A DNA stretch of 64,000 nucleotides from Desulfopila sp. IMCC35008. GTDB taxonomy: Bacteria > Desulfobacterota > Desulfobulbia > Desulfobulbales > Desulfocapsaceae. The notes beneath the pieces are model-generated. The model was not told where the DNA came from and searched no databases. It saw only the letters and a list, made by a program, of their open reading frames with translations. Location of the stretch: assembly GCF_010646885.2 (NCBI RefSeq), contig NZ_CP050700.1:4924501-4988500 (forward strand), read 5' to 3'. Within the stretch, counting starts at the first letter, position 1. Each line of letters starts with the position of its first letter. Both the position numbers and the translations under genes were made by a program. Shown one piece after another: positions 49,801 through 64,000 of this stretch.

Positions 49801-50189
49801 AGCGGTAAATCCAGGCCGGAAGGAGGTTCGATTATCTGTACAGGTTCACCATCCTCTACGGGAAATCGAGTGCGAAGAGTTTCATGGCGACTGATAATGG
49901 CATCGAGCGCCCCCCGCAGGGCCTCATGGTCTAATGACCCATGCAGTCGAAGATGGCATGGAACGTTATAAACCGAGCTTTGTGAATCGAGTTTTGCCAG
50001 CAACCACAAGCGCTGCTGCGAGAGTGCCAGGGGAAATGAACGACCGTCTCGCGACTGCACCGCTATCTCCAGCCGGTTCGAGTCCATCTTTTCTGCCATG
50101 ATCAACTTCTCCAGGGCCCGGCGCTTCTCCGGAGGGAGACGGCTCAGACGGTCCATCAAAGAGGTATGGTCCTGATGATCAGCGGCCAT
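37890..50189 (-). CDS. Three-module NRPS with tandem C domains: C-C*-A(Thr)-PCP-C-A(Val)-NMT-PCP-C-A(Ala)-PCP
   Basis: 4,099 residues from the ATG at 50189, behind GGAGAAGG and overlapping the methyltransferase stop by 11 bases; a longer frame to 50252 lies inside that gene. A short helix (LSRLPPEKRRALEKL) starts it. C1 (~50-480) has HHLISDG. A second C-like domain (C*, ~503-945) has HQIICDL instead. A1 (~960-1450) code DFWNIGMVH, Thr. PCP ~1500. C ~1567, HHIISDG. A2 (~2027-2940) code DAFWLGGTF, Val, with an N-methyltransferase after a8 (VLEIGSGTGM ~2560). PCP ~2993. C ~3055, HHIVADG. A3 (~3475-3990) code DLFNNALTY, Ala/Gly, is the base-identical copy of an A domain in the terminal NRPS. PCP ~4040. 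It accepts the PKS product. Confidence 0.95.
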   Translation of the reverse strand: MAADHQDHTSLMDRLSRLPPEKRRALEKLIMAEKMDSNRLEIAVQSRDGRSFPLALSQQRLWLLAKLDSQSSVYNVPCHLRLHGSLDHEALRGALDAIISRHETLRTRFPVEDGEPVQIIEPPSGLDLPLVDLGGLSIEEKEEEVLRRVKIEGQQTFNVGTGPLLRAFLLRCSDTDHVLLLTMHHLISDGWSMSILLRELSLFYNAMLEGRNAVIEPLTIQYADYAVWQQKWLTKKRLRQQTDYWRNQLAGAPPLLTLPWDRPRLQRQSYHGATCHFELDQTVTAALQRVSRQTSTTMFMVSLALFAVILNRFSSQDDLVIGTPAGGRGRKEIESLIGFFVNSLALRIRFFPGISFYQLLGRLSTTAREAYAHQEVPFEILVEELHPERNPSFSPIFQTWFVFRNQTPEEAPLTGLRLSPLQSDSHTAKFDLTLFLAEEEGQLRGGFEYNRDLFDSDTIGRMCLQLQRLAAQVGESSDIPLERLALEPLPHYPAIDKRPRSAMLPLSYHQQRLWFIDRFERGNVYPHSPVYHNFPLLIEVEGRLEKQRLQTSLNKLSGRHRLLRTRFETIEGEVHQLIEPQAEIALHLEEPADTLSMGELVELALEANQHPFDLEHAPLARAVLFCNANQSLLLVSVHQIICDLNSLELLARELASFYDGREPVSMDNVPDYGDYLLWQLHLPATVIEPLFLHWRYQLRGKVEPLLLPTDRPRPPVHTFRAGRIPFCMKSTENDAIAKLAKESDLPAETLLLAALLILLQRYTGQEEIVIGRQAGLRSRPGYNMFGPLANLQVLRCRPSEKLSFLEFCAQLDSKLLADQAYEEMPFDLLVQKLQPAKDMSRTALFDVLFTCCTAREMPAMAGQASRLLQTGIGHGKYDLHLALSRQGHELQGNLVFNRDLFDEATARRLSAHFQRLLLQLVGRPQRAISAVELLDSTERGEQLSQWSVTSANWPQQSTLNQLFAAQVAANSEHIALSCGSEHFTYAELEERANRLAHLLRDKGVGDQELVALLLPRQPELIIAILAVLKAGGAYLPLDPELPVERLRFLLQDSGVGYLISNQDLDERLPTAGVERIRADDPLQEKMTSTPPVCKVLPDNLAYCIYTSGSTGQPKGVLVEHRNVVRLLFNDNSLYDFDSSDVWTLFHSCCFDFSVWEIFGALLTGGRLVMVSRQQSQDPALFAQLLLQEGVTVLNQTPGAFYQLSEELLNHKTADNVQTALRLVIFGGEVLTPQRILAFAQDFPAVRLVNMYGITETTVHATFHELGRQDFSATISPIGRPIPTTWIYLLDQQGRLLPKGVCGEIWVGGSGVARGYLNRPELNGERFRPDPFRPGERVYRSGDLARYLVDGSLEYLGRMDQQVKIRGYRIEPVEIEARLLEHPAVTGGVVVALDGGGGDYQLVAYTCCRQSVAAAELRDWLAEILPAYMIPGRFVFLERIPLTVNGKIDRKALPQPAAGDDGDVVPPFGEVEEGLAEIFKELLGVVEVSRLSNFFELGGHSLLATRLVSRIRIHFEIELPVQAVFEHPSLAGLAGRIKRSHGFESQMLPPLEQVDRDQVIKRYGGLPLSFAQQRLWFLDRLVPGNPFYNCPAALRLQGRIKRQQLKKVFHELIRRHETLRTRFLEQDGHPLQQIDSPQPLPLVFHDLSSLEPEERLEQARILAREEAARPFDLSNGFLIRAVLIRLADEDHLLLLTLHHIISDGWSLGVLHREMTLLYQAFAGNRPSPLQDLPVQYIDFAVWQRSWLSGARYSEQLEYWRQQLHHLTELELPTDRPRPKRLSYRGETMKVCLPARLLCSLEEVSSRHGSTLYMTLLAAFMTLLSRFTGQQDIVVGSPIANRNNSAIEDLIGFFVNTLVLRGDLSGDPLFSELLAQVRQTALAAFAHQDIPFEQLVEELQPPRRLNQNPLVQVIFALQNGPAFQGGIPGLEVSAWEEEADSVRFDLEVHLWPEDGDLVGRFIYNRDLFDAVTIGRLVNHFHTMLDGIGEKPDTRLSALPMLGREEIKQLKLWSGRDTSYPAEATLADLFRHQVAEQEGTIALRWQGGYVSYGELARQAEALAADLRKCGVGPDVLVAIAMERSPQMITALLAIVLAGGAYLPLDPAAPAERHAAILEQADIGAVIVDQSLAAMLPKLAVSVFAATPTGGIVCTDMAYNQEAIPVPATSLDLAYVSFTSGSSGVPKGVMITQRGVVRLVKGTSYADFSSDHVFLQASPLAFDASTFEIWGALLNGGCLALLPAGRPSLAELGRCICEMGVTSLWLTAGLFHLLVEEGMESLAGVKQLLAGGDILSSRHLKMALQQLPDCRLINGYGPTESTTFTCCHTISENDCRRSSIPIGRPIDNTRVYILDESLQQVPVGVAGQLCIGGDGLARGYLGNAELTAACFIVNPFANQDHSPRLYLSGDRARFLNDGSIEFLGRLDQQVKIRGFRVEPAEIETQLRTHPLVADALVLPHSAGAGDNAGAGDKQLSACIVAHQGMSGVDALGNTWQQDHLQHWQQLYEETYGETPQTAGTDPDLVGWNSSYTGEAIPVEEMHQWLDITGEKILDLQPQQVLEIGSGTGMIMAYVAPHCRTYLATDFSTQAVQKLEQMRGSRPQLASVDIRELRADQLEMLAPAVFDTIILNSVVQYFPSINYFQDVLQHLSQLLAPGGYLFLGDLRNFRLLRTFHLSLERYHAESSGGTVTVADLRRRATRAVAAERELLVDPEFFLDNTCCGGLELQGMMPKGGGYDNELSRFRYDLLLRKPGKPFEAVRPVVLDWHHQGRTFENLASRLTGTTESCLAVTRIPNPILGRERNVEELIGRADPNSSLIEISEGLSKVSSELPTPADLHKLAADKGWRLRLFWPEGSYENLELDAIFYRPETSPPLAWPPVRSKIFSHSLQNYCNNPLLGELSRVLVPQLRVHLGKHVPDYMLPSHYTVLERFPLTTNGKIDRTALLDPVWSSPERRTPPAEPRTSTEEQLVAIWQEVLNLNEISIHDNFFDLGGHSLLATQVVSRIRRIFGRELAVRQVFEAPTIASLAAELSLAAEQQSVKITRRQGTIDPPLSYAQQRLWFLDHLEQGEGYLMPLALGLSGLLDIDALRKSLAGIVARHEVLRTLFDQRDGEPFQRILPALEIPVPLDDIAMLPEHNKQEQAKKLMAAFFAEPFDLSCGPLLRARVIRFSDEEHRLLLALHHIVADGWSLGVLTHELAEHYRSKTLGQVVSLPPLSIQYADYACWQRAFLQGEERQRQLAYWRHQLEDFSELQMASDFPRPERQTFRGARLQVHISKALLRELEHLSTREGCSLFMTLLTGFMILLSRFTGQEDIVVGSPIANRHRQELEGLIGFFVNTLVLRGDISGTPSFSELLARVRRMTLDAYAHQDIPFEQLVEALQPQRRLDRNPLFQVLFALQNVPLGDLELEQLRLAPVEPDNLASRFDLELHCFQEDAGLRAEFIYNPDLFRAATIRCLADHLLHLLKTLVAAPHVPLVAQNLISPEEEAQLADWNALSHPAESADTALRIEELFAAAVRHSPEAPALECDGQVLSYAQLDRAAEQIARQLQGAGAGAEARVGVYCDRSPELIIALLAILKSGSCYVPLDPSYPRERLAFMLQDAEVSIVVSRRQFRDSLSGLLDGEERTILWLDDQQEHEPMAPLSQAGSSSDLAYILYTSGSTGLPKGVAIEHRSVVALLDWAGRVYSEDELCRVMASTSVCFDLSVFEIFLPLSRGGCVVLVENGLSLKDNKVSVSLINTVPSVMTELVRHRAIPETVRTVNLAGEPLKGALVREIFAVSEVEAVYNLYGPSEDTTYSTWVRLERGFSGEPTIGVPISQTTASVLDSRLRPVPIGAAGELCLGGAGLARGYINRPEQTAESFIANPNGAGRLYRTGDLVRFASDGQLIFLGRLDHQVKLRGYRIELGEIEAVLVGHRAVSQCLVTTRQLGDEVQLIAYVESGLEPPSSSDLRTYLGRTLPGYMIPARFVLLEQLPLTPNGKIDRNRLPEPSERVPAAVETDDQAPYPGREEEIAEIFAELLHLVYVGRHDNFFESGGHSLIATRLISRLQERYAVPLPLALIFEAPTLSELARRIDSAIRLFKQPLDGVADDEEEITL
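38218..39767 (-). repeat. A-domain-sized direct repeat, copy 2
   Basis: Partner of 17549-19098, 20,669 bases apart in the same orientation, one visible base difference. Boundaries fall in the C-A linker (LVAQNLISPEEEAQL) and just after a10 (NGKIDRNRLPEP). Confidence 0.95.
42787..42822 (-). repeat. Two tandem 18-base units inside the Val module
   Basis: Two copies of TCTCCTGCTCCTGCGNNA in a row encode AGAGDN-AGAGDK in the loop between the a8 part of the A domain and the inserted N-methyltransferase. A small slippage expansion in a flexible linker. Confidence 0.8.
47340..48690 (-). other. Second, degenerate C-type domain (C*) in tandem
   Basis: Domain-level annotation within the three-module NRPS. 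It begins LSYHQQRLWFIDRF and continues through the whole C-domain fold to LVFNRDLFDEATARRL. The active-site motif HHxxxDG appears as HQIICDLNS: second His and Gly are replaced, while the first His and Asp remain. It follows a normal C domain directly, with no A or PCP between. Confidence 0.85.
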
Positions 50190-51144
50190 GAACCTTCTCC
50201 CAGTGCTGAATGAAGTAGATATCAATTCCCTTTTCCATGTCGCAAAAGGCACGGGAACCTTCCAGACCGAGAAAATCGCTCATCATCTCCTGGTCATTGG
50301 CCTGCGGAAATGCGCCCAGGTGAACGTCTCCTGTCGCCCGACAGGAGAGCAGGACATTAGCAGTAATATCCCTGTCAAGCATGAGCTGCAAGCCCAGATC
50401 CCTCAGAAATGCGGTGCTGCGTGATTTCTTCTCCCGGGGCAGAATATCGCTGTAGAGGAAACGGCCGCCAGGCCGTAGAACGCGTGCGACCTCACGGTAA
50501 AAGCTATCGATCTCCGGATAATTATGAGACGACTCCAGATTGGTCAAACAGTCAAAACTGCGATTCGGAAACGGCAGGTGTTCGGCATCTCCAACCAGAA
50601 AATGGGCTTGATCCGCAGGTGCATTGTCACGGCAAAAGGTAATCGCCTCGCGACAAAGGTCGATGCCCGTCAAGCGTTCAGGTTGAAAAAGGTTTGCCAG
50701 GGTATCAATGGTACCGCCTCGACCACAGCCCACATCAAGCAGCTCCACGCCCTCCAGCGGGGATCCTCCGACCATCTCCAGCACCAGATTGACGCAAGCC
50801 CTGTTGATGACCCGTTCAGGCAATTCAACCACCCGCTCAGTCGGTGAGCCGTCATCCAGAAAACCGATATTGAGGAACCGGGCATGTTGTCTATAAAGGC
50901 TGCTGTTAAGCTGCCGACTGATAGTGGTGTAAAACTGCTGTGTCTTCTCTTTGACCTCTATTGCTGCAGGTACCTTATCCTGCAGCAGCTGCGCTTTACT
51001 GATCACGTCTTGCGCCGGTTCAGCGGCGGATGAAACATCAGCCAACTCTGTCGGCACCTGCTGCCCGGCCTTGCGCAACGCTGCTTCCAGAACCTGACGT
51101 TGTCTTGGGGAGAGTTTCGAGAGTCGTTGCTGTAGGATATTCAT
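50179..51144 (-). CDS. Discrete SAM-dependent methyltransferase
   Basis: 321 residues from the ATG at 51144, whose first base overlaps the PKS stop (TGATG) behind GAGG; a TTG one codon earlier is possible. The class I methyltransferase domain lies at about 120-270: motif I VELLDVGCGRGGTID, then LTGIDLC, VGDAEHLPFPNRSFD and VARVLRPGGRFLYSDI. The N-terminal ~30 residues (LSKLSPRQRQVLEAALRK) look like the helix at the N-terminus of NRPS proteins that follow PKS modules, and may dock on the PKS tail. It could O- or C-methylate the beta-hydroxy ketide unit made just before it. Target inferred from position only. Confidence 0.88.
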   Translation of the reverse strand: MNILQQRLSKLSPRQRQVLEAALRKAGQQVPTELADVSSAAEPAQDVISKAQLLQDKVPAAIEVKEKTQQFYTTISRQLNSSLYRQHARFLNIGFLDDGSPTERVVELPERVINRACVNLVLEMVGGSPLEGVELLDVGCGRGGTIDTLANLFQPERLTGIDLCREAITFCRDNAPADQAHFLVGDAEHLPFPNRSFDCLTNLESSHNYPEIDSFYREVARVLRPGGRFLYSDILPREKKSRSTAFLRDLGLQLMLDRDITANVLLSCRATGDVHLGAFPQANDQEMMSDFLGLEGSRAFCDMEKGIDIYFIQHWEKVHGR

Positions 51145-54100
51145 CAAAAGTCCTCTTTGCCGTCCAGGATCGCCTGCAGGTCCTCCTCGGACATCTCTTC
51201 TACCTTATCGAGCATCCGTGAAAGCTTATCCAGTTCCCCTTCCGCTTCAACCATTGCCTGGCAGAGTTTCTGAGACAGAGTTTCAACAGTCGGTTCCTCG
51301 AACAGGATATGGACAGGAAGGGTGGTGTGGAAACGATCATTGAGCTGCGCTACGACCTGGATGGCCAGCAGCGAGTGGCCGCCTAGATCGAAAAAATCGT
51401 CATGACGGCCAATCTCAGCAAGTCCGAGAATATCCTGCCAGACCTGCGTTACCACCTCTTCCACCTCCCCCGAAGGCATACTGTAAGCAACGTCAAGAGC
51501 GGGACGCTGGTGACGGGCCGGTGAGCTGGCAGTACCAGGGGCGTTAAGAACTGAAGAGAGCCTGGCCTCTTTCAGCCGCATACCAAGATCCCGTGTAGAG
51601 ACAAGAACCTGCCCTTTCGGTAATGCGGTCAGCAGTCGTTCAAGTGCGTCCATACCTTCCTGAGGTCGAATCAGAAAATCTACCGACTCATTTGTATCGT
51701 CGGCCCAGCCATCCCAATTTATAGTAAGCCAGGGTATATCCGACCTCAGGTTCTGTTCATGAACCAAAGCGTCAAGAGCAAGATTGGCCGCACTATAGCT
51801 TGCAAAGCCGACACCACCCAGCAACGCGGAAAGCGAGGAAAAAAGAATGCAGCAACCAACCCGACGCCCCTGCACCGCCTCAGCCAGCGCAGCCACCCCA
51901 TCGACTTTGGCTTGAAAGTGACCTTCCAGCAGCTTTTCGGTGCATTCAGCCAGGGGTGCCAGAGACCCGCTGCCGGTCACACCAGCCAGGTAAAAGATGG
52001 CATCAAGGCCTTCAAACTGCTCCTCGGCATGTGCCAGGGCATTTTCGAGGGCCGGCCCGTCGGTGACATCAACCTCAACAATCTCAAGCACCGCCGCCTT
52101 TTCGCGAATCCGTTGCAGTCGTGACTGCTGGGACGAGGAAATGTTTTCTACTGAACGACTGAGCAGGACCAGTTTCGCTTCCCGGGTCACTGCAAGATGT
52201 TCAGCCAGATGCAGGCCAAGACGGCCCAACCCACCAATCAGGAGATAACTGCCACCCTTTTTGCTGGTCGTTCCCCCAGCGGCGGCAGGCAGGGAAAGCG
52301 ACTGATATGACTCCATCCAGGGGTGTCCTCCGCGCAGGGCTATACTACAGGTGACATCCTGGCGCCTCAATTCCCGCGCCAGCAGTTCTGCCGACTCCGC
52401 AACAGCAGCCGTAGTCTCCAGATCGATGCTACGGCAACGGATTGCCGGAATTTCCTGGGGAATCACCCGAATTGCGGCCAATAAGGGGACTGAAGCAGGA
52501 TCGAGGTGTTCATTTCCGCTAACATCGTGAAGCCCGCTCCCTACCGCAACCAGAGAGACAGTTGGATTGAGCAGTGGCTGACAGGCCGTCGCCAGGTACA
52601 GCAGACTGGAAAAAGTCAAAGATCGATGCTGCCGTGACAGCTCCTGCCCGGTGAGATCGGGAGGCGGGGCAATGGACCAGAGGTGGACCATCCTTTGCAA
52701 TTGAGGCCACGCTGCCCCCAAATGCGAAAAAAGGCGAACATAATCATGTGGTTCATCCGGCCGGATACCATAGGTATTCGGCCCATCCACCTGAAACTTT
52801 TCCGCAGCACTGACCCGGAAGACCTGATTACCATTCTGGCGCAGCTCATCTACCAGAGCCTTGACCAGGGGGGTCTGTTCCCCAAACAGAAGCCAGGGCT
52901 TATCATCACCTGCCCCGGCAGGCAATACACATCGTTTCCAGGTCGGCAGCGTAAACCAGTCCTGCAGTGATAAACGGGTGGTCGGCAACATCTCAGGCAC
53001 GACCTGTGACAATGGTTCAAACCAGTAGCGTTGCCTGGAAAAAGGGTAGGCAGGCAGGGGAATACGTTGATGCTGTTGACCATCACCAAAACGTTGCCAG
53101 TCAACATAGACACCAGAACACCAGAGTTTTCCGAGGGAAGCCAGTATCCCGGACACAACCTGATCCTTCTTTATAGCAGGTACAACGCTGACAACCTCCT
53201 TTTCACCCTGCAGGTGCCAAAGCTCGCTGACCTCCTTTTCTGAAAAAGAGCCGAACAGTACCACAATCTCCCCTGGTATTACAGTATCTGTAACCGGCAA
53301 CTCATTATCAACTCTGAGGGGGTGTAAAACCGCCTCAACCGCCAAAGCCATCCCCTCTTCAAGGCTCATCTCTTTTTTAAGGCAAGCCGCAACGGCCTGT
53401 CCGACTCCGACACCAACACAATCAACCGGTTCTATCCCCCAGTTGACCAGAAGACTGGCCAGGGAAAATTCCAGAAGGAAGAGAGCCTGTTGTTGCAAAT
53501 GCGCCAACGTTGTGCGGGTAAAAAGAACACTACGTAATTGTTCGCGTAACTCTTTCGGCAGCTGATCAAGACAGTTTTCTATCTCCTTTTGAAACTGTGG
53601 GAATTCCGCAGCGAGCAGCTGTCCCATCTCGGGAGATAAAACAGTCGTGCCCGATATAAGAAAAACCACCTCCGGCTGTCTGCCGTCACTGCTCACAGGC
53701 AGCACCGCAGACTCTCTATCTCCGGCCTCTTCGAGCTGGGCTATTGCGCCTACCCTGTCTGTGCAAACCAGGGCCCGGCGATATGAATAATGCTCTCTGC
53801 CAACCTGGAGGGTATAGGCAACGTCCGCCAGGTTGATGTTCTCCTCGTTTTTGAGGTGCCGTCCTAGGTTATCAACAGCCCTTCTGAGTTCCTCCTCTCC
53901 CGCTGCCGAAACAACAAGCAATTGAGGTGCGCTGTCTCTTCTGGTGGTTGATAACGGCGGAGCTTCTTCCAGCACGAGATGGGCATTGGTGCCACCGATA
54001 CCAAATGAACTGACTCCGGCCCGGCGAATCCCATTAATGCCCTGCCAATCCCTGAGATGGGTATTGACAAAAAATGGTCCTGCCTGCATATCGATATCAG

Positions 54101-55253
54101 GATTTGGCGTCTCAAAATGGAGACTGGGCGGAATTTCACCGTGGTGGAGTGCCAGAACAGTCTTGATCAAGCCGGCAATACCTGCTGCGGTATCGAGGTG
54201 ACCAAAATTACTTTTGACAGAACCGAGGGCACAATGTTTTTCATGTCCGCCGCTGCTTCGAAAGGCCCGCATCAGGGCCGCGATCTCAATCGTATCACCC
54301 AGAGGCGTTGCAGTACCATGGGTTTCCACATAGGAAATAGTGGTCGCATCGATATCTGCCATGGTCAGAGCCTCACGGATAACCGCGGTCTGACCGTCCA
54401 CCCCTGGTGCCATGTAGCCAACTTTGACTGCACCGTCATTGTTGACAGCCGAGCCCTTGATCACCGCATAAACACTGTCACGATCTGCAAGGGCATCGTC
54501 GAGCCGTTTCAATACAACCAGTCCTGCACCGCTGCCACCGATAGTTCCCTGGGCACGTGCATCAAAAGGCCTGCAGTGACCATCCGGGGAAAAGATCATT
54601 CCATCCTGATGGAGATACCCCATGGTCTGCGGTACACTTATTGACACCCCGCCGGCCAGGGCCACATCGCACTCACCGCCGAGCAGTGCCTGGCAAGCCA
54701 GATGGACCGCCACAAGAGAGGTGGAACAACCGGTCTGCACATTGATTGCCGGTCCGGTGAGATCAAGTTTATAGGCAACCTTGCTGGCGAGAAAATCTTT
54801 GTCATTGAGACTGACCGCCTGGTAATAGGCCAGAGGACCGAGACGCTCACGATCTGGGATGATGCAGTGGAGCATGTAGGTACTTGACGAACAGCCTCCG
54901 TACACCCCGACAACTCCCTCGACCTGACGAGGTCCGTATCCCGCATATTCCAGAGCCGTATAAGCAGTCTCAAGAAAGAACCGCTGCTGGGGATCCATCA
55001 GCTCCGCCTCGGTGGCGGTATATCCGAAAAAACCGGCATCGAACAGGTCAATACCATCCAAAACCGAACCGGCCGCGACATAGCCTGGCTTTGACGAGAG
55101 TTTGGGATCAACCCCGGCTTCGAGTAGCTCATCAGGAGTGAAACGCCGGATAGACTCCACGCCGTTGCGCAGGTTGCGCCAGTAGTCATCCACCGAAGCG
55201 GCACCGGGGAAGCGACACTGCATTCCGATAATTGCGATATCCGTCTCTGCCAT
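51144..55253 (-). CDS. Type I PKS module: KS-AT(degenerate)-KR-ACP
   Basis: 1,369 residues. The ketosynthase (1-430) is intact: Cys in TGCSTSLVAVH (~174), His in ETHGTATPLGD and SNFGHLDTAAG. The acyltransferase region (about 528-700) is shortened, and its GHSxGE site reads GVGVGQ, so catalytic Ser and preceding His are lost. The ketoreductase (structural part ~760-1000, catalytic ~1000-1190) has GGLGRLG and FASYSAANLAL with Tyr and Asn, so a beta-hydroxyl is expected. The carrier domain has LGGHSLLAIQ (~1294). The C-terminal acidic helix (EEMSEEDLQAILDG) is a likely docking segment. The malonyl unit must come from another AT. AGGACA precedes the ATG. Confidence 0.94.
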   Translation of the reverse strand: MAETDIAIIGMQCRFPGAASVDDYWRNLRNGVESIRRFTPDELLEAGVDPKLSSKPGYVAAGSVLDGIDLFDAGFFGYTATEAELMDPQQRFFLETAYTALEYAGYGPRQVEGVVGVYGGCSSSTYMLHCIIPDRERLGPLAYYQAVSLNDKDFLASKVAYKLDLTGPAINVQTGCSTSLVAVHLACQALLGGECDVALAGGVSISVPQTMGYLHQDGMIFSPDGHCRPFDARAQGTIGGSGAGLVVLKRLDDALADRDSVYAVIKGSAVNNDGAVKVGYMAPGVDGQTAVIREALTMADIDATTISYVETHGTATPLGDTIEIAALMRAFRSSGGHEKHCALGSVKSNFGHLDTAAGIAGLIKTVLALHHGEIPPSLHFETPNPDIDMQAGPFFVNTHLRDWQGINGIRRAGVSSFGIGGTNAHLVLEEAPPLSTTRRDSAPQLLVVSAAGEEELRRAVDNLGRHLKNEENINLADVAYTLQVGREHYSYRRALVCTDRVGAIAQLEEAGDRESAVLPVSSDGRQPEVVFLISGTTVLSPEMGQLLAAEFPQFQKEIENCLDQLPKELREQLRSVLFTRTTLAHLQQQALFLLEFSLASLLVNWGIEPVDCVGVGVGQAVAACLKKEMSLEEGMALAVEAVLHPLRVDNELPVTDTVIPGEIVVLFGSFSEKEVSELWHLQGEKEVVSVVPAIKKDQVVSGILASLGKLWCSGVYVDWQRFGDGQQHQRIPLPAYPFSRQRYWFEPLSQVVPEMLPTTRLSLQDWFTLPTWKRCVLPAGAGDDKPWLLFGEQTPLVKALVDELRQNGNQVFRVSAAEKFQVDGPNTYGIRPDEPHDYVRLFSHLGAAWPQLQRMVHLWSIAPPPDLTGQELSRQHRSLTFSSLLYLATACQPLLNPTVSLVAVGSGLHDVSGNEHLDPASVPLLAAIRVIPQEIPAIRCRSIDLETTAAVAESAELLARELRRQDVTCSIALRGGHPWMESYQSLSLPAAAGGTTSKKGGSYLLIGGLGRLGLHLAEHLAVTREAKLVLLSRSVENISSSQQSRLQRIREKAAVLEIVEVDVTDGPALENALAHAEEQFEGLDAIFYLAGVTGSGSLAPLAECTEKLLEGHFQAKVDGVAALAEAVQGRRVGCCILFSSLSALLGGVGFASYSAANLALDALVHEQNLRSDIPWLTINWDGWADDTNESVDFLIRPQEGMDALERLLTALPKGQVLVSTRDLGMRLKEARLSSVLNAPGTASSPARHQRPALDVAYSMPSGEVEEVVTQVWQDILGLAEIGRHDDFFDLGGHSLLAIQVVAQLNDRFHTTLPVHILFEEPTVETLSQKLCQAMVEAEGELDKLSRMLDKVEEMSEEDLQAILDGKEDF

Positions 55254-55388: not shown

Positions 55389-58300
55389 TTAATTCCTGTT
55401 CTTGTTCATGTTTCTCCGCATCAGGCGCTGCCGTGCCAAAGTCCTGCTTCGTTCAGTGCGACGCTCGGCCCGCTTTTCCCCCTCATCTTCGGCTTCGTTG
55501 TTTTCCCCTGCTCCTTCCAATTGTAGAGCCAGGCGCGCAATGGTCGGAGCCCGGAACATGTCGACCATCGAAACAGGACGGTTTAAAAGAGTTTGCAGTT
55601 TTTTGTTGAGTTGCACCATCAGGATCGAGTTGCCGCCCAGTTCAAAAAAATTATCATGGATGGAAACCTGCTCCACAGCCAGGAGTTCTTGCCATAGACT
55701 GCCTATACGCTGCTCCAGCAGAGTGCGCGGTGCGACCCTGTTCGCTGGCGCTCGAGAGGTACCGCCCGGTGCTGGCAAACGACTGCGATCGACCTTGCCG
55801 TTTGCGGTGAGAGGAAATTGTTCCAGGATAACAAAGGCTGCAGGAAGCATATACTCCGGCAGAACCTGTCTGAGTATCCCCTGGAGCTCATCTTTTATTG
55901 CCTCAGCCTGCTCCTCCAGCAAGAGATAGGCAACCAGGTGCTTGTCCAGGTTTGAGCCGGTCGAAACCACCAGGGCGTCCTTGATTTCCGGAAGATTGCG
56001 GAGATGGCTTTCGACCTCGCCGGGCTCAATACGATAACCGCTGATTTTTACCTGATGGTCGATCCTGCCCAGGAACTCAATTCGACCATCCGGCAGGTAA
56101 CGGCATAAATCGCCGGTACGATAGAGCCGTCCGCCACCCCCTTCAGTTGCAAAGGGATCGGCAACAAAACAGTCCGCGGTCAAACCCGGATTTCCGAGAT
56201 AACCTTGAGCCAGACCATCGCCACCGATATAGAGTTCACCAGCCGTACCGACCGCAACAAGCTGTCGATCGGGATTAAGTATATAAGCCCTGCTGTTGGC
56301 AACCGGTCGACCGATCGGTATGGTCCGCAGACCCGGTTCTACGGCCCTCATTGGATAGCAGCAGCTAAAAGTAGTGCCCTCGGTTGGGCCATAGCCGTTG
56401 ATCAACACCAGTTCAGGGCAGGACTGCAGTAATCGAGTGACGTGGCCGGGCGAGAGGATATCTCCACCAGCCAGGAGCTGCCGCACACCGGCAAAATCAG
56501 CCACCTGCTCGTCGACCATCAAATGAAACAAACCGGCGGTGAGCCAGAGGGTCGTGATCCGCTTTTCACGGATAACCCGGCCTAACTCCGGCAGCGACGG
56601 AACACCTGCAGCCATGACCTCCAAGCTGCAGCCATTAAGCAGTGCTCCCCAGATCTCGAAGGTGGAAGCATCAAAAGAGAGCGGTGCAAATTGCAACATT
56701 CGCTCCTGAGGACCGAGATCGACATAATTACTGTTGCGCACCAGCCGAATCACCGCCCGCTGGTCCACCACCACTCCTTTGGGGCTGCCGGTGGAACCAG
56801 AGGTATACATTATATAGGCCGGGTCAGCGGCCCTGTTTACCAATGGTGGGTTTGCAGCAGATTCTCCCTCAAGTACCGAACTGAGCTGATCGAGCAGCAT
56901 TACCTGGCGAACACCTTCACCCAGGGTACAACGCCGCCTAAGCCTTTCTTTACGCGGCAGGAAGGCCAATCCGGTTATCTCCTTCAGCTGTTCATCTTCC
57001 CAGGGGGTACCGTTATTGGACAGCGATGTGGCAATAATATCTCGCATAATCAGTTCCCCTTCACCCAATACCACCAGGTCAAGATTCACATCGGAGAGCA
57101 GGGTGGCAAACTCACTTGTTGCATAAGGTCCGCCCGTCACGATCTGGGCCTCGGGACACCATGCTCGCAGAAGAGATACGGTCTCATGGAAGAAATGGCG
57201 ATAAAGGGAAAGGGTGCGGATACCAATGATCTGCGGACGAAAATCGACGACCTCCTTTTCCAGCGCCGCAAAGGAGTCGAAATCGACCATGGCCTTGCGA
57301 ATGCGGCCATCCAGTCTTTCGCCGAATTCACGATTGAGATAGGTGAGCAGGGATATCAACCCCAAAGGAGCCTCAACCAGTTCATTAAGCTGATAATTAC
57401 TATCGCTGAAGAGCTGAGATAGATCCAGGAGCAAGAGACGCAGGGGTTCCTTCGCTTGCCTCGTTTTGGGAGCTGACTTCCTGGGATTCACCTCCACTTC
57501 CTGGCGTATCGCGGTCATCGGTTCCGGCCTTGACGGCGGCTCTGCCTTGATGAGCTGCAGCACCTCTGGATAATCCTCGAGCTTGCCAGGGAGATAGGTG
57601 GCGTATTTAGCCATGATCTCCTCATGTGAAAGCACCTTTTTCTGAGCTGGAATCACCGCCTGCAACCGTTCTTCGGACAAGAAATAGTCGTTGAGATAAC
57701 GGTTCTGGAACTCACGGGCAAAAGCTGCTGAAAAAGGCATCGTCTCTCCTGGGTCGTGATAGGAGAGATAGGCGGAGCGCTCAATGGCCTCACGGCTGAC
57801 CCCGTGGGCAATTGCCAGTTCTGCCATATCGGTATTGGGGAAAATCTTCAGGGCATTAAGTGTCGGGAAATGTAACCAGTGAACGTTTCTAATAAAATCC
57901 AGCGTCTGCTCCACCTCAGCCTCGGTCTCGGTCGGGAAGCCGAACATGGTAAAAAGGTCGAGAATGATCTGGGGGTGATGAGAGGTGATATGGCTTATAG
58001 TAGCCTGTAACCGGTCAATGTTGAGGTTCTTTCCGATCAGCTTCTGCAACCGTGGAGAAGCCGTTTCCAAGGCCAGGGCCATCTGTATTACCCCGGCCTC
58101 AGCCATCAAATCAATCTGCTCGGCGTTTAGCAGATCACCTTTCAGGCCGTTGGGGAAAAGAATCCGCAACTTCAGGTTATGCTGGAGCACCAGCTCGAAA
58201 AAACGGCTGCTGTTTCGACGATCGAGGTTGAAAATGTCGTCGATAAAGCTGAAGGTATCATACCCCTTGTCATAATGCTGCCGCACTTCGGCAAAAATGT

Positions 58301-61300
58301 TCTCGGCTGAACGGATATGATGCACTTTGGGCCAGATTTTATGGCAATAACGGCACTTGAAGGGGCAGCCACGAGTGGCATAGATACTAATGTTGCGACG
58401 AACACAGGCCTCACCGATATATTGGTCGTATTTGTGGTAATCGACCAGAGAACGATCAGGATAGGGTAGACTGTCCAGATCCTTGATCGGTTCCCTCCTG
58501 CCGGTCTGGATCAGTTCGTCATCGAGCAGCTGCAGTTGTTGCAGGGTCGTAAAAGGCTGCATTTTAAGAATGGGGCTGCAACTGATAACCAAACCTGCCC
58601 CACTGTCCTGCAGGAGGCGTCGAACCCGTTCCTGTGGCCATTGCGGGTCAAGAGGAAGATAACAGCCTCCGGCTTTGACCGTCGCCAACATTGCCGTCAC
58701 AATTTCCGGGGAGCGTTCATCAAGAAGAGCCACCACTGTACCCCGCTGCACACCATGACGCCTCAGCAGATGGCTGAGTCTGTTGACACGGGAATTGAGT
58801 TCACCATAGCTCAGTTCCTGCCCGGCAAATGAAAGGGCCAGCCGGTGAGGTGCCACAGCGGCGTGTTCTTCGAATAGTTGCTGCAGGGATGCATTTCTTG
58901 GGTAATCGCTCGCTGTGGCGTTCCAGTCTATCAGCAGCTGCTCACGCTCCCTGTCTGAAAGGGGGCTGAAGAAACTGTGATCATCGTCCGGGGTCAGAGC
59001 CATTGCCTCTAACGCCCTGCTGTAGTAACCGGCAATAGCCCGAACCTGATCAACAGCCAACTCGAGACCATTATAATCTAGGTCAAGGCTGATCTGGCCG
59101 GAGACAGGGTCAAGACCGAAGTCAACACCGAGAACGAAATTGGTTTGCTCGAAGAATTGTTCATCCAGGACCTGGATACTATCGTCAAGAGCCAGCAGTT
59201 TTTCGTAAACATGAAAATGAGTGAAGTTAAAGGCACTTTCAAAAAGCGTTCGCCCATTGAAACTTCGCTGGATTTCTGTCAGCGGATACCGGCGATAGGG
59301 CATACTCTCCTGTTCGATAACGTGCACCCTATGTGCCAGGGTTCGCCAGCTCTCTGAGGTCAGATGAACACGAAACGGCAGGGTGTTGAGGAACAGCCCG
59401 AGAACCCGGTCCCCCTCCTCTTCGGCCAGACGACCGTTTTGGACCAGTCCGGTAACCACGTCCTCCTGGTTGCAGAGAAAGCCCATAACACGTATATGGG
59501 CAGCCAGCAGCAGGCTCTTGAGTGGCAGTCCTTCCTGCCTGGCCAGGGAGCGCAGTTGTTCAGAGACCACAGCGGAGATATCGACCGGTTCTATGCCAAG
59601 ACGCTCCACTCGTACTTCGCCCTCGTCCTGCAAAGGAAAGCCAGGCCAGCGGGGCAGGCCGACAAAACTCATGTCGGCGAGAGTCTTCCGCCAGAACCGG
59701 GCAGAAGCAGTATCGACCGTGGCCTGCTGTTCTGCGGCAATAAAGTCCCGGAACAGGAGTCGAGGCGCGGGTTGCAGGACAATCGTTCTTCCCATGTCAG
59801 CCAGATAGTGGCAGAACAGTTCGGTAAGCAAAGCGGCGACACTCCACCCGTCAAGGATAGCATGATGGAAACTGAGGCTCAGGCTGCAGCGGTTTTCTCC
59901 CCGAAGGTGAAGACAAAAGCGCAGAAGCGGGGGGCGGGACCAATCAAAACCATTGCCTTTTTCTGTGGCAATCCATTGACGTACTGCTTCATCTTGCTCC
60001 GTTTGGGTGATGTTGCGCAGATCGATAATATCTAAAATTGATTCAACATGTCGATGAACCAGCTGAAGCGGTCTGCGAAAACGGCTCAGCTCGAATCCGG
60101 TCCGCAACACCGGATGGGACTGGACCAAAGTTGATATAACCCTCCGTATTCGTGATACATCAAGTGGGAAACGAAGATGCAGGCTGAAGATATCGTGATA
60201 GACAGGTGAATCAGGGCTGAATTCGCTATGGAACAGCATTCCACCCTGCAGGGAGCTCAGAGGATAGGCATCCTCCACCTCGTCGGTCAACTGCGCCCGC
60301 TCCTTTTCATCTAAAAGAGCAAAGGCGTGGGAGGCCTGCCGGGAGACCAGCTCTTCTTTCCCGACCAGTCGACAGGCAAGCTGAGCGATGGTCGGCCAAT
60401 GAAAAACATCCCTGATCTCTGCGGCCAGATCAAGCTGCTTGCGAATAGCACCAACCAGGCGTAAAACCTTGATGGAATCTCCGCCAAGAGCAAAATAATT
60501 GTCGTGGATACCGACCACCTCCCGGCCAAGGAGGTCCTGCCAGAGGATGACCAACTGGCCCTCCAGGGGGGTGCGCGCAGCCTGATAGATGCCGTTATCG
60601 GCTATCAGCGTACCCTCTCCTGCCTGCGGATCAGGCAGAGCCCTGCGATCAAGCTTATTATTGACGGTCAGCGGAAGCTCTGCCAGCCGGACAAAATAGG
60701 CCGGCAGCATGTACTCGGCCAGCCGGCCGCGAAGATGGCGGCGCAGAGGCTCGAGTTCCACCATTTGCTCCATTACCAGATAGGCAATGAGATGTTGTTC
60801 ACCCTCATCATTGTTACGGGCAACCACTGCTGCCTCACTCACCGCCGGATGATCCAGCAGGGCCGCCTCTATCTCTCCTGGCTCGATGCGATAACCACGC
60901 ACCTGCACCTGCTGATCGTTGCGGCCAAGATATTCCAAAGTACCATCCAGCCGGTACCTTCCCAGGTCGCCGGTCCGATAGAGCCGCTCCCCATTGACAA
61001 AGGGGCTGACCAGAAAGTGTTCAGCAGTGAGTTCTGCCTTCTCGTGATACCCCAGGCAGACGCCGTCACCGCCGACATAGAGCTCACCTGTAACTCCGGC
61101 CGGTACAGGGTGGCCCGCATCGTCACAGATATACACCGTGACCGTAGGCAAGGGGGAGCCGATGGGACTGCTGCCGTCGGCCTCGAAGATATCAGCCTTT
61201 TGCAGCGGGTACCAGGTCACATGGACCGTGGTCTCACTGATGCCGTACATGTTAATCAGTTGGACCTGCTCCAGAGGGAAACGGCGAACCCAGCCCTTCA

Positions 61301-64000
61301 GAGTAGCAGGCTCGAGCCGATCACCCCCGAATATCACCAGACGCAGGGCCCGGAGCTCAGCCCGATTATCCTCGGCCACCCGGCTGAGGTTGGAAAAACT
61401 GCCGGGAGTCTGGTTGAGAATAGATACCTGGTGGCGGTCCAGCAGCGCCAGGAACCGCTCGGTATCACGGACTTCTTCCACGTCCGGAACGACCAGGCGA
61501 CCACCGCGGAGCAGGGCCCCGAATAGTTCCCAGACCGAGAAATCAAAACAGGCCGAATGTGCCATCACCCAAACGTCTTCAGAATCGAAATCAAAGGGAA
61601 ATGCATCATTGAAGAGCAGCCGGACCACGTTGCTGTGACTGACCACGCAGCCCTTCGGCCTGCCGGTGGAACCGGAGGTGTAAATGATATAGGCGGGCGA
61701 GTGGGGGAGAATGCTCCGGGCTTTTTGTGCCGCCCCGCAACCAGGCAGCTCAGCTGGATCGATCTGGATCATGCTCTCTACTACGGGCAGGGCCTGGTCA
61801 CTCAGTAGCAGACGACAGCCGCTGTCCTGTAACATGAACAGCTGACGCTGCTCGGGATAGCGAGGATCAACGGGGACATAACAGCCCCCTGCCTTGAGAA
61901 CACCCAAGATAGCAGCAATAAGCTGAATCGAAGGATGCAGACAGACCCCCACCGCTTCACCCGGTGCCAGTCCCTGCTGCTGCAGCCCGCTGCAGATCCT
62001 CGCCGCCAGCTCATCGAGCTCACGGTAACTGCACTGCTCCTCACCTCTGACCAGAGCGATTGCCTCAGGAGTGCGACAGGCCTGCCGGTCGAATAAACTC
62101 ACCAGAGTGGCCGATTGCGGCCACTGGCTTGGTGCGGGATTGCAGCCGACAGTCAGCTCTTCTCGCTCACGGTCATCAAGAATAAGATGTGGATCCAGAC
62201 AGCGTTCCGGATTCTCTGTGAGATGCTTCAATATGCTGCGGAACCAGTTAACAAGTGATTCCAACTGGTATGTACTGTAAATCCCGGCAGCTGCGGCAAT
62301 TCGTATTCGGGTCACAGAGCCGGTTCGGCTGATGGTGAAGACCATGCCGGTGTCGGTGTTCTCAAACCCCTCTTCCACCAGCGGATTCCGCAACTCGATC
62401 AAATCATCCAGACCGGCGGCAACATGAAAATCAACATAGTTGAAAAGGATATCAAAGAGCCGCTGTTCAGAGCCACCGGCCCCAACAAGACTGCTGATCT
62501 CACTTAATGGGAAACGATCATGAAGACGGATCTCAACAAGCTGATCACGCAGTTTATGGACAAGGTGCTGACCGCTCAAGTCGTTACGGAGGTGGATCCG
62601 GAGTGGTACACTGTTCAGGAAACAACCGAGTATTTCGTCACTCTTCTCGATTTCCGGCCGATTATGGCTCACCAAACCAAATAACAGATCGGAGCGATTG
62701 GTGGTAAAACGCAGTAAGGCGGTAAATGCAGCAAGAAAAAGAGGCTGCTCTCCAGTCTGCAGGACCATACCTGCTTTTGCTACCTGCCTGGTAAGTTGCC
62801 GATCAAGATCGACCTGATATTCTGTAACTCCCCGGTTGCTTCTCCTGTTTGCTGATCGTTGCAGCGGGAGCGGCGTAAGCTCCCAGTCACGCAGGGTCTG
62901 CTGCCAGAAACTCACATGACCAGGCCAGTCTTTGTGGGCCATCTGCTCTGTGACAAAATCCCGGTAACTGCCTGCAAGCGGGCTTGGACGAAAATCAGGA
63001 TTCCGACCTAAAGCCGAAGTAGTACGCAGCAACTCATTAAGCATGGCAGCATTGGACCAACCATCGAGAATCGCATGATGGAATGACCAGAGCAAACCAT
63101 ACTCCTGATCACCGAGAGAATACAGACTGAACCGCCATAATCCAGGTCTCGCCGGGTCAAAAGGGGCTGCCAGATCATCCTTCTGCTTCATGCGGAGGTG
63201 CTGCCGTTGCTCCTCCCTTTCAGAGAACTGCAAATCCTCATAAGTCAGATAGTCAGCGATAGGTTTATCCAGGCGGCGATGAACGAGTTGAAGCGGCTCG
63301 TCAAAACCAGCCAGGGCAAATCCGGTGCGCAAAATTGAATGACGTTCAACCAGCAGTTCGAGGGCCCTGGCGAAACGTATCGGATCAAAATCGTGACTGA
63401 CGAACTGGATATAGAACTGGTCATGATACACCCCCTGCCCGGCGGCAAGAGCATGATAGATCATGCCGAGCTGGATGTCGCTCATCGGATAGAGATCCTC
63501 TACACCATCTAAAGGAATCGTCTGATCTTCCTTGAGTTGTAAATGCTTCCGCATTTTTTCCAGCTGCTGATAGACCGGTGCCAGATCTGGCCCGTCTGTC
63601 AGTAGCTGGTCCGCTTCAAGAAAACCTGCGAGCTGGGCCACAGTTGGGTAGCGGAAAAGAGCGGCAAGCGGCAAACGCCGGCCCAATGTACGCGCCATAT
63701 TGTCGGCCAGGCGTAAAACCTTGATGGAATCTCCGCCAAGAGCAAAATAATTGTCGTGGATACCGACCACCTCCCGACCAAGGAGATCCTGCCAGAGGAT
63801 GACCAACTGGCCCTCCAGGGGGGTGCGCGCAGCCTGATAGATGCCGTTATCGGTTATCAGCGTGCCCTCTCCTGCCTGCGGATCAGGCAGAGCCCTGCGA
63901 TCAAGCTTATTATTGGCGGTCAGCGGAAGCTCTGCCAGCCGGACAAAATAGGCCGGCAGCATGTACTCGGCCAGCCGGCCCCGAAGATGGCGGCGCAGAG
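55389..64000 (-). CDS. NRPS (partial, open at right edge): ...A-PCP-C-A(Thr)-PCP-C-A(Val, split by radical SAM-B12)-PCP
   Basis: At least 2,869 residues; no true start in the window. Residues are numbered here from the internal Met at 63962. End of an A domain, then PCP (LGGDSI, ~78). C ~155-590, HHAILDG. A ~620-1105, code DFWNIGMVH, Thr. PCP ~1161. C ~1237-1680, HHAILDG. The last A domain starts ~1694, breaks off after a2 (~1795) and resumes at a3 (TSGSTGSPKG, ~2385). The gap holds a radical SAM domain (CPFKCRYC ~1867) and a B12-binding domain (~2174-2334). Its code after the insert is DAFWLGGTF, Val. PCP (LGGNSI, ~2775). An Arg-rich tail (~2815-2857) meets the PKS. Both C domains open like D-accepting or dual types (YPxSxxQxGM), yet no E domain is visible before them. 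Confidence 0.95.
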   Translation of the reverse strand, partial: LRRHLRGRLAEYMLPAYFVRLAELPLTANNKLDRRALPDPQAGEGTLITDNGIYQAARTPLEGQLVILWQDLLGREVVGIHDNYFALGGDSIKVLRLADNMARTLGRRLPLAALFRYPTVAQLAGFLEADQLLTDGPDLAPVYQQLEKMRKHLQLKEDQTIPLDGVEDLYPMSDIQLGMIYHALAAGQGVYHDQFYIQFVSHDFDPIRFARALELLVERHSILRTGFALAGFDEPLQLVHRRLDKPIADYLTYEDLQFSEREEQRQHLRMKQKDDLAAPFDPARPGLWRFSLYSLGDQEYGLLWSFHHAILDGWSNAAMLNELLRTTSALGRNPDFRPSPLAGSYRDFVTEQMAHKDWPGHVSFWQQTLRDWELTPLPLQRSANRRSNRGVTEYQVDLDRQLTRQVAKAGMVLQTGEQPLFLAAFTALLRFTTNRSDLLFGLVSHNRPEIEKSDEILGCFLNSVPLRIHLRNDLSGQHLVHKLRDQLVEIRLHDRFPLSEISSLVGAGGSEQRLFDILFNYVDFHVAAGLDDLIELRNPLVEEGFENTDTGMVFTISRTGSVTRIRIAAAAGIYSTYQLESLVNWFRSILKHLTENPERCLDPHLILDDREREELTVGCNPAPSQWPQSATLVSLFDRQACRTPEAIALVRGEEQCSYRELDELAARICSGLQQQGLAPGEAVGVCLHPSIQLIAAILGVLKAGGCYVPVDPRYPEQRQLFMLQDSGCRLLLSDQALPVVESMIQIDPAELPGCGAAQKARSILPHSPAYIIYTSGSTGRPKGCVVSHSNVVRLLFNDAFPFDFDSEDVWVMAHSACFDFSVWELFGALLRGGRLVVPDVEEVRDTERFLALLDRHQVSILNQTPGSFSNLSRVAEDNRAELRALRLVIFGGDRLEPATLKGWVRRFPLEQVQLINMYGISETTVHVTWYPLQKADIFEADGSSPIGSPLPTVTVYICDDAGHPVPAGVTGELYVGGDGVCLGYHEKAELTAEHFLVSPFVNGERLYRTGDLGRYRLDGTLEYLGRNDQQVQVRGYRIEPGEIEAALLDHPAVSEAAVVARNNDEGEQHLIAYLVMEQMVELEPLRRHLRGRLAEYMLPAYFVRLAELPLTVNNKLDRRALPDPQAGEGTLIADNGIYQAARTPLEGQLVILWQDLLGREVVGIHDNYFALGGDSIKVLRLVGAIRKQLDLAAEIRDVFHWPTIAQLACRLVGKEELVSRQASHAFALLDEKERAQLTDEVEDAYPLSSLQGGMLFHSEFSPDSPVYHDIFSLHLRFPLDVSRIRRVISTLVQSHPVLRTGFELSRFRRPLQLVHRHVESILDIIDLRNITQTEQDEAVRQWIATEKGNGFDWSRPPLLRFCLHLRGENRCSLSLSFHHAILDGWSVAALLTELFCHYLADMGRTIVLQPAPRLLFRDFIAAEQQATVDTASARFWRKTLADMSFVGLPRWPGFPLQDEGEVRVERLGIEPVDISAVVSEQLRSLARQEGLPLKSLLLAAHIRVMGFLCNQEDVVTGLVQNGRLAEEEGDRVLGLFLNTLPFRVHLTSESWRTLAHRVHVIEQESMPYRRYPLTEIQRSFNGRTLFESAFNFTHFHVYEKLLALDDSIQVLDEQFFEQTNFVLGVDFGLDPVSGQISLDLDYNGLELAVDQVRAIAGYYSRALEAMALTPDDDHSFFSPLSDREREQLLIDWNATASDYPRNASLQQLFEEHAAVAPHRLALSFAGQELSYGELNSRVNRLSHLLRRHGVQRGTVVALLDERSPEIVTAMLATVKAGGCYLPLDPQWPQERVRRLLQDSGAGLVISCSPILKMQPFTTLQQLQLLDDELIQTGRREPIKDLDSLPYPDRSLVDYHKYDQYIGEACVRRNISIYATRGCPFKCRYCHKIWPKVHHIRSAENIFAEVRQHYDKGYDTFSFIDDIFNLDRRNSSRFFELVLQHNLKLRILFPNGLKGDLLNAEQIDLMAEAGVIQMALALETASPRLQKLIGKNLNIDRLQATISHITSHHPQIILDLFTMFGFPTETEAEVEQTLDFIRNVHWLHFPTLNALKIFPNTDMAELAIAHGVSREAIERSAYLSYHDPGETMPFSAAFAREFQNRYLNDYFLSEERLQAVIPAQKKVLSHEEIMAKYATYLPGKLEDYPEVLQLIKAEPPSRPEPMTAIRQEVEVNPRKSAPKTRQAKEPLRLLLLDLSQLFSDSNYQLNELVEAPLGLISLLTYLNREFGERLDGRIRKAMVDFDSFAALEKEVVDFRPQIIGIRTLSLYRHFFHETVSLLRAWCPEAQIVTGGPYATSEFATLLSDVNLDLVVLGEGELIMRDIIATSLSNNGTPWEDEQLKEITGLAFLPRKERLRRRCTLGEGVRQVMLLDQLSSVLEGESAANPPLVNRAADPAYIMYTSGSTGSPKGVVVDQRAVIRLVRNSNYVDLGPQERMLQFAPLSFDASTFEIWGALLNGCSLEVMAAGVPSLPELGRVIREKRITTLWLTAGLFHLMVDEQVADFAGVRQLLAGGDILSPGHVTRLLQSCPELVLINGYGPTEGTTFSCCYPMRAVEPGLRTIPIGRPVANSRAYILNPDRQLVAVGTAGELYIGGDGLAQGYLGNPGLTADCFVADPFATEGGGGRLYRTGDLCRYLPDGRIEFLGRIDHQVKISGYRIEPGEVESHLRNLPEIKDALVVSTGSNLDKHLVAYLLLEEQAEAIKDELQGILRQVLPEYMLPAAFVILEQFPLTANGKVDRSRLPAPGGTSRAPANRVAPRTLLEQRIGSLWQELLAVEQVSIHDNFFELGGNSILMVQLNKKLQTLLNRPVSMVDMFRAPTIARLALQLEGAGENNEAEDEGEKRAERRTERSRTLARQRLMRRNMNKNRN
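56935..58575 (-). other. Radical SAM plus B12-binding insert within an A domain
   Basis: Domain-level annotation. About 545 residues lie between the A-domain strand GAGLVIS (after a2) and GVRQVMLLDQ (before a3). Order: linker IKDLDSLPYPDRSLVD; radical SAM core with RGCPFKCRYC (C-x3-C-x2-C), FIDDIFNLD and ALETASPRLQKLIGK; C-terminal helices to ~57470; then a B12-binding domain with LLLLDLSQLF, QIIGIRTLSLY, VTGGPYATSEFATLL and VVLGEGE, ending EITGLAFLPRK. In ordinary B12 radical SAM proteins the B12 domain comes first and GLAF... runs into the DLDSLPYPDR linker. Here the order is reversed, a circular permutation. Confidence 0.9.
60455..60748 (-). repeat. Direct repeat of A-domain end/PCP, copy 1
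   Basis: 294 bases that match 63707-64000 with about seven differences (offset 3,252). They encode the last part of the A domain (LAEYMLPAYFVRLAELPLT) through the PCP serine region of two consecutive modules. Confidence 0.9.
63707..64000 (-). repeat. Direct repeat of A-domain end/PCP, copy 2 (reaches window edge)
   Basis: Partner of 60455-60748. Still matching at the last base of the window, so the repeat probably extends into the upstream A domain. Confidence 0.9.

Follow-up and report, generated by a model that had tools for sequence, protein, structure and literature searches.

Some adenylation (A) domains of nonribosomal peptide synthetases (NRPSs) are interrupted by tailoring enzymes, as in TioN and MarQ, in which a methyltransferase lies between core motifs a2 and a3 (PMC11355689). 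The B12-dependent radical S-adenosylmethionine (SAM) enzymes of class B canonically have their B12-binding domain ahead of the radical SAM domain; in bottromycin and polytheonamide, such enzymes methylate Val, Ile, and Pro (PMC11285071). CysS methylates a carrier-bound substrate (PMC8992657), and the stand-alone B12 radical SAM enzyme DscE adds a methyl group (+14 Da) to a valine of discodermin, a nonribosomal peptide (PMC12858407). Here, we analyzed a stretch of 64,000 nucleotides (hereafter, the window) from the closed, 6.3-Mb genome of Desulfopila sp. IMCC35008 (contig NZ_CP050700.1, positions 4,924,501 to 4,988,500), in which an NRPS gene encodes an A domain interrupted by a B12 radical SAM enzyme of reversed domain order. 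The best explanation as a whole, to which we give an even chance, is that this insert is a cis-acting C-methylation cassette working on the carrier-bound residue, here turning valine into tert-leucine ahead of a statine-type extension.

The NRPS gene occupies positions 55389-64000 of the window, 55389 being its stop, and the open reading frame (ORF) extends beyond it as far as approximately 76238 (with the window numbering continued), giving a full protein of approximately 6950 amino acids. All features located by coordinates below are on the minus strand; both the coordinates and the strand had been correctly assigned in a preliminary description made from the sequence. The 6 A domain codes read, in module order, DAEDIGAMYK, Gln, Gln, Thr, Thr, and Val, with the insert residing in the last module. 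This module comprises a condensation domain (58932-60275; best PF00668 stretch at residues 1230-1677 of the window ORF 55389-63962, with an HHxxxDG motif), the N-terminal A1-A2 part of the A domain (58530-58901; motif DPQWPQERV at 58649-58623, placed also by an AlphaFold2 [AF2] model), the insert of approximately 530 amino acids between core motifs A2 and A3, the A3-A10 remainder (55773-56933), and a peptidyl carrier protein (PCP) domain (55512-55727; PP-binding match, LGGNS motif at 55640). Motifs A3 (YTSGSTGSPKG), A4 (FDAST), A5 (NGYGPTE), A7 (LYRTGDL), A8, and A10 (NGKVDR) are intact, so that the A motifs and the A fold are retained on both sides of the insert, as in other interrupted A domains. 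In the AF2 model of the 1050-amino acid interrupted domain (predicted local distance difference test [pLDDT] 85.8, predicted template modeling score [pTM] 0.87), the solved A domain 4d56 aligns across the entire length (TMt 0.92, root-mean-square deviation 3.1) with the insert appearing as a gap, which supports an intact A fold at the level of the model. The Stachelhaus code extracted from the split domain, DAFWLGGTFK, differs at one position from DAFWIGGTFK, which we take to be the textbook valine code, and the A3-A7 half matches the uninterrupted DAFWLGGTF domain of the cluster's 4120-amino acid NRPS at 57%, compared with 39% to 49% for the other A domains of the cluster. Activation of valine, which the preliminary description had read from the same residues, is accordingly well supported as a prediction from the code.

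The insert (56934-58529) is predicted to consist of a radical SAM domain followed by a B12-binding domain, based on Pfam, NCBIfam, a 65-sequence alignment, and the AF2 model. It matches Radical_SAM (PF04055) with 66.9 bits and B12-binding (PF02310) with 33.6 bits in a six-frame search of the genome (cut-off 32.1), although a scan of the long protein gives 27.4 bits for the latter, short of the cut-off. The sequence CPFKCRYC (58344-58367) corresponds to the CxxxCxxC [4Fe-4S] motif, the second and third cysteines of which are invariant and the first nearly so in the 65 aligned relatives. The C-terminal, Rossmann-type B12-binding domain (56950-57455) is recognizable from the PLG, GGPYATS, and GEGE motifs, conserved alignment columns, and the alternation of strands and helices in the AF2 model. 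Thus, the insert has the CxxxCxxC barrel and the predicted B12-binding domain of class B enzymes, but the B12 domain does not come first, and the same radical SAM-B12 order is found in the window insert and 64 aligned relatives. When the 2 halves were swapped in silico, solely to test for a permutation, the canonical order yielded single continuous matches to B12 radical SAM profiles (e.g., BzaD 20-415 and BchE 42-362) with scores above those of the native order. Neither the native nor the reordered insert passed any NCBIfam cut-off (for TIGR03975, 43.1 and 55.4 bits, respectively, against 281.85), and the insert is therefore a member of no named family in that collection. Its GC content, 0.52, is slightly under that of the flanking A domain, 0.56. 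Collectively, these features make a class B-type enzyme acting in cis a well-supported assignment at the sequence level.

A scan of 84,980 species yielded 76 loci with relatives of the insert. According to their ORFs, 49 of them carry it within an NRPS, besides the window, nearly always at the same A2-A3 site, and approximately 20 encode stand-alone proteins of approximately 550 amino acids with the same reversed order. Dozens of other NRPS genes have the same insert, 41% to 52% identical to that of the window over approximately 520 residues, at the corresponding position, which excludes a chance event. NRPS-embedded inserts are present in at least 6 phyla, including Aminicenantes/Acidobacteriota (two dozen loci in a single metagenome-assembled genome), Desulfobacterota, Bacillota (among them the cultured Clostridium puniceum, with a Glu-coded host domain at L078), Bacteroidales, Thermoflexales, and Elusimicrobia; these hosts belong mostly to anaerobic lineages, consistent with an oxygen-sensitive enzyme. 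A search of plasmids with tblastn produced no full-length relative, and a viral collection contained one match, weak and partial.

The interrupted A domains carry codes for Thr (8-9 loci), Pro (6-7), Ile (5), Glu/Gln-type residues (3), and Val (2, the window included), as well as Asn, Leu, Tyr-like, and several unassigned codes. Gly, Ala, and Ser codes are absent from the readable interrupted domains, whereas the 66 uninterrupted ones include 3 Gly and 3 Ser; as a test for a C-beta hydrogen, this sample is too small to carry weight, and the sorting by motif had placed a few interrupted domains (e.g., L047, L057, and L059) among the uninterrupted. In the phylogenetic tree, the inserted forms and one stand-alone protein (L102) form a single clade apart from the remaining stand-alone proteins, requiring one change of state, whereas host specificity switches at least 22 times. 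The window insert groups weakly with Thr- and Tyr-coded inserts rather than with the other Val-coded one, although many inner branches are weak and its exact position is hence not firm. As far as sequences can tell, a single entry into an A domain apparently preceded the spread of the cassette through A domains with many different specificities. Given the range of host codes, the insert is not valine-specific. The preliminary description had predicted a tert-leucine unit, which remains a reasonable reading in light of the valine code, the cis-acting class B-type enzyme, and the DscE precedent; its view of the insert as an enzyme dedicated to the conversion of valine to tert-leucine is at odds with the relatives whose host A domains are coded for Thr, Pro, Ile, Glu, Asn, and Leu and with the grouping in the tree. 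In 2 assembly lines (L055 and L049), two or three inserts are found in modules of differing specificity (Thr, Ile, and Glu in L055).

The stand-alone relatives are found mainly in Pelagibacteraceae and other marine Proteobacteria (L079-L091, L093-L097, L103, and L106), with 36% to 42% identity over the full length; they share the reversed domain order with the insert but, unlike it, lie outside NRPSs. Several of them, from SAR11, SAR324, and other marine Proteobacteria (L080, L084, L089, L096, and L103), have a recurring set of neighbors, namely, an AMP-ligase, LuxE, LuxC, a FabA-like protein, a SPASM radical SAM protein, an SDR, and a split transketolase, which is suggestive of an undescribed pathway leading to a modified acyl or surface compound. 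In [Clostridium] polysaccharolyticum (L102), the reversed-order enzyme, basal to the inserted forms in the tree, is a separate protein encoded within an NRPS-polyketide synthase (PKS) cluster beside another B12 radical SAM-like protein.

At 6 loci (L048, L050, L054, L064, L067, and L092), the module contains an intact A domain, followed by a truncated second A domain with the insert and then by the carrier. The intact domain displays the unusual code CVQYIAHVVK, or a closely similar one, in which Cys takes the place of the usual Asp235. Among 5 such loci, the inserts are 63% to 74% identical, compared with 24% to 42% for the A remnants (with poor alignment scores) and 37% to 53% for the PCPs; in pairs with intact hosts, the flanks share 38% to 63% and the inserts 57% to 66%. 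Conservation of the insert alongside decay of the A remnants indicates that it is kept under selection for itself, and its persistence in a dead remnant next to an intact A domain indicates that it does not need adenylation by its host. These arrangements, together with L074, in which the insert lies between an A domain and the carrier protein, could also mean that the insert modifies the growing chain, or a residue that a different module has loaded, instead of its own module's aminoacyl-carrier. We consider this unlikely, because at all these loci the insert still belongs to one module and directly precedes its carrier domain, and methyltransferase-interrupted A domains act on aminoacyl-carrier species (PMC11355689). 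The CVQYIAHVVK-type A domains (L048, L049, L050, L054, L064, L067, L074, and L092) were always encountered in insert-bearing modules; their substrate may lack an alpha-amino group.

Being embedded in loading domains for many amino acids in several phyla, the insert is probably a movable C-methylating tool, which is not limited to valine. The broader proposal, namely, that a phylum-spanning kind of interrupted A domain contains a reversed B12 radical SAM enzyme that entered once and became a mobile cassette, able to C-methylate the residue loaded by its module, whatever that residue is, and to outlive decayed hosts, appears to us about evenly poised between true and false.

In the window, the Val module is followed by a PKS (51144-55253) with Pfam matches to ketosynthase (KS), ketoreductase (KR), and acyl carrier protein domains and with the active-site motifs of KS and KR, but with a dead acyltransferase (AT); dehydratase (DH) and enoylreductase domains were not matched in Pfam. 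A Val A domain ahead of KS and KR with no DH, as noted in the preliminary description, is the pairing expected of a statine-type unit. According to the mechanism that we propose, the A domain would place L-valine on its own carrier protein, and the built-in class B-type enzyme would modify the carrier-bound residue, with C-methylation of valine yielding the predicted tert-leucine. The KS-KR module would then extend this unit with malonyl supplied in trans and reduce the ketone to a beta-hydroxy-gamma-amino (statine-type) unit, possibly followed by O-methylation. The parts of this route that are read from sequence are the Val-type code, the intact A domain, the radical SAM and B12 domains, KS and KR without DH, and the dead AT; from these we infer that the reaction is methylation, that it occurs at C-beta while the residue is carrier-bound, and that malonyl is provided in trans.

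The AF2 model of the insert (pLDDT 86.9, pTM 0.87) supports a radical SAM fold. Its best solved neighbors are AprD4, which is the best single match, MgmA, the methylthiotransferase family, TsrM, OxsB, and CysS, with most alignments covering the radical SAM part; the VIA-align matches, likewise mainly to that part, speak neither for nor against the placement of the B12 domain. C-methylation is the most frequent chemistry of class B enzymes, and the closest B12-containing structures include the B12 methylases MgmA, TsrM, and CysS. Val, Ile, and Pro, known targets of C-methylation, occur among the host codes. Conversion of valine to tert-leucine is hence the probable form of the reaction here. 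Several observations weigh against the proposed route. The top structural match, AprD4, is a diol dehydratase rather than a methylase, and the B12 radical SAM enzymes OxsB and BchE likewise perform other chemistry; C-beta methylation of Thr and Glu, which feature among the host codes, is not established in the cited literature; and no conserved residue fixing methylation or its position was identified in the insert. The AT of the PKS is a remnant (residues ~530-770) without a PF00698 match and with GVGVG where GHSxG is expected, so that malonyl must come from elsewhere; a search for trans-AT candidates revealed one other PKS AT and one 358-amino acid FabD-like AT in the genome and none in the cluster. 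Finally, the cluster encodes a second B12 radical SAM enzyme that could methylate the Val residue instead. An active insert performing hydroxylation, desaturation, rearrangement, or cyclization on the carrier-bound residue, with no tert-leucine formed, would be compatible with the AprD4 match, with the hosts ranging over Thr, Pro, Ile, Glu, and Asn codes, and with profile scores for BchE, ApyD, P-methyltransferase, and AprD4-type enzymes that are alike and far under every family cut-off. It is a possible but rather improbable alternative, considering the methylases among the nearest structures, the methylatable host residues, and the fact that most characterized class B enzymes are methylases (PMC8992657 and general knowledge). 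Epimerization was also considered as a role for the insert and set aside, as nothing connects the insert to D/L logic.

The second enzyme (28386-30437) is a separate, canonical B12 radical SAM C-methyltransferase of TIGR03975 (449 bits, cut-off 282), complete and of the type acting on ribosomally synthesized and post-translationally modified peptides, and an extra C-methyl group is for that reason not necessarily the work of the insert. With DscE methylating a released nonribosomal peptide as a stand-alone protein, the insert might be a non-catalytic relic and any C-methylation the work of the TIGR03975 enzyme. This we regard as highly doubtful, because the insert has all catalytic motifs and has been retained in sister clades while the A remnants decayed; C-methylation in cis is the reading that we carry forward.

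Past the Val NRPS, the gene order continues with the PKS, a SAM-dependent methyltransferase (50179-51147; PF08241, with an Mtf2-like match under the cut-off), which might possibly O-methylate the beta-hydroxyl, NRPS modules with N-methyltransferase-type domains, the TIGR03975 enzyme, and a final NRPS with a thioesterase; RND efflux genes are located upstream. In the NRPS after the PKS (37890-50252), three A domains are accompanied by four condensation-type matches, with an extra condensation or epimerization domain at the start of the protein, and a gene for a subtilase-like protein (14725-16344) lies directly downstream of the last NRPS gene. The whole assembly line comprises roughly 14 residues. 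The protease-inhibitor-like group envisaged in the preliminary description would be internal to this long line and goes beyond the evidence, as does a statine analogue as such, although the underlying step is plausible from the KS and KR motifs and the lack of DH, despite the dead AT.

NRPS engineers are familiar with cis-acting N-, O-, and S-methyltransferase inserts. If the proposal holds, built-in radical C-methylation would allow an assembly line to methylate unactivated carbon atoms one residue at a time. The decayed hosts suggest that a residue activated by a different A domain is within reach of the cassette, a point of relevance if it is to be employed as a portable part. PMC12858407 describes the biosynthetic source of the tert-leucine found in plocabulin and hemiasterlin, both anticancer leads, as unknown, and embedded radical SAM domains are one candidate route to it. 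The cultured carriers Clostridium puniceum DSM 2619 and Desulfosediminicola flagellatus IMCC35005 make the cassette experimentally accessible.

The inserts named in the open-access reviews of interrupted A domains that we consulted are methyltransferases, KRs, oxidases, and monooxygenases, with no radical SAM insert among them. Searches of the open-access literature on interrupted A domains containing radical SAM enzymes, Aminicenantes NRPSs, circular permutation, and C. puniceum NRPSs returned nothing relevant. The window insert resembles those of TioN and MarQ in being a tailoring enzyme in the A2-A3 loop with a proposed action in cis on the loaded residue; however, theirs is an ordinary SAM-dependent S-methyltransferase, whereas that of the window is a two-cofactor B12 radical SAM enzyme of approximately 530 amino acids. 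The class B radical SAM methylases CysS, from the cystobactamid pathway, and TokK have both been solved with pantetheinylated substrates, and within its NRPS pathway CysS works on a substrate bound to a carrier, as proposed for the insert, but both are stand-alone proteins with aromatic or carbapenam substrates. The B12 radical SAM enzymes PoyB/PoyC and BotRMT C-methylate Val, Ile, Pro, and Phe, but in ribosomal peptides, and PoyC has a Cx7CxxC motif (PMC11285071) in place of CxxxCxxC. Closest in chemistry is DscE, which C-methylates valine of a nonribosomal peptide as proposed for the insert, but as a separate protein methylating the released peptide in trans in vitro, a situation resembled in our cluster by the stand-alone TIGR03975 enzyme rather than by the enzyme built into the NRPS. 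Radical C-methylation of an NRPS-derived valine in trans is thus known from DscE, whereas a radical SAM insert within an interrupted A domain is new, being so far undescribed in the open-access literature.

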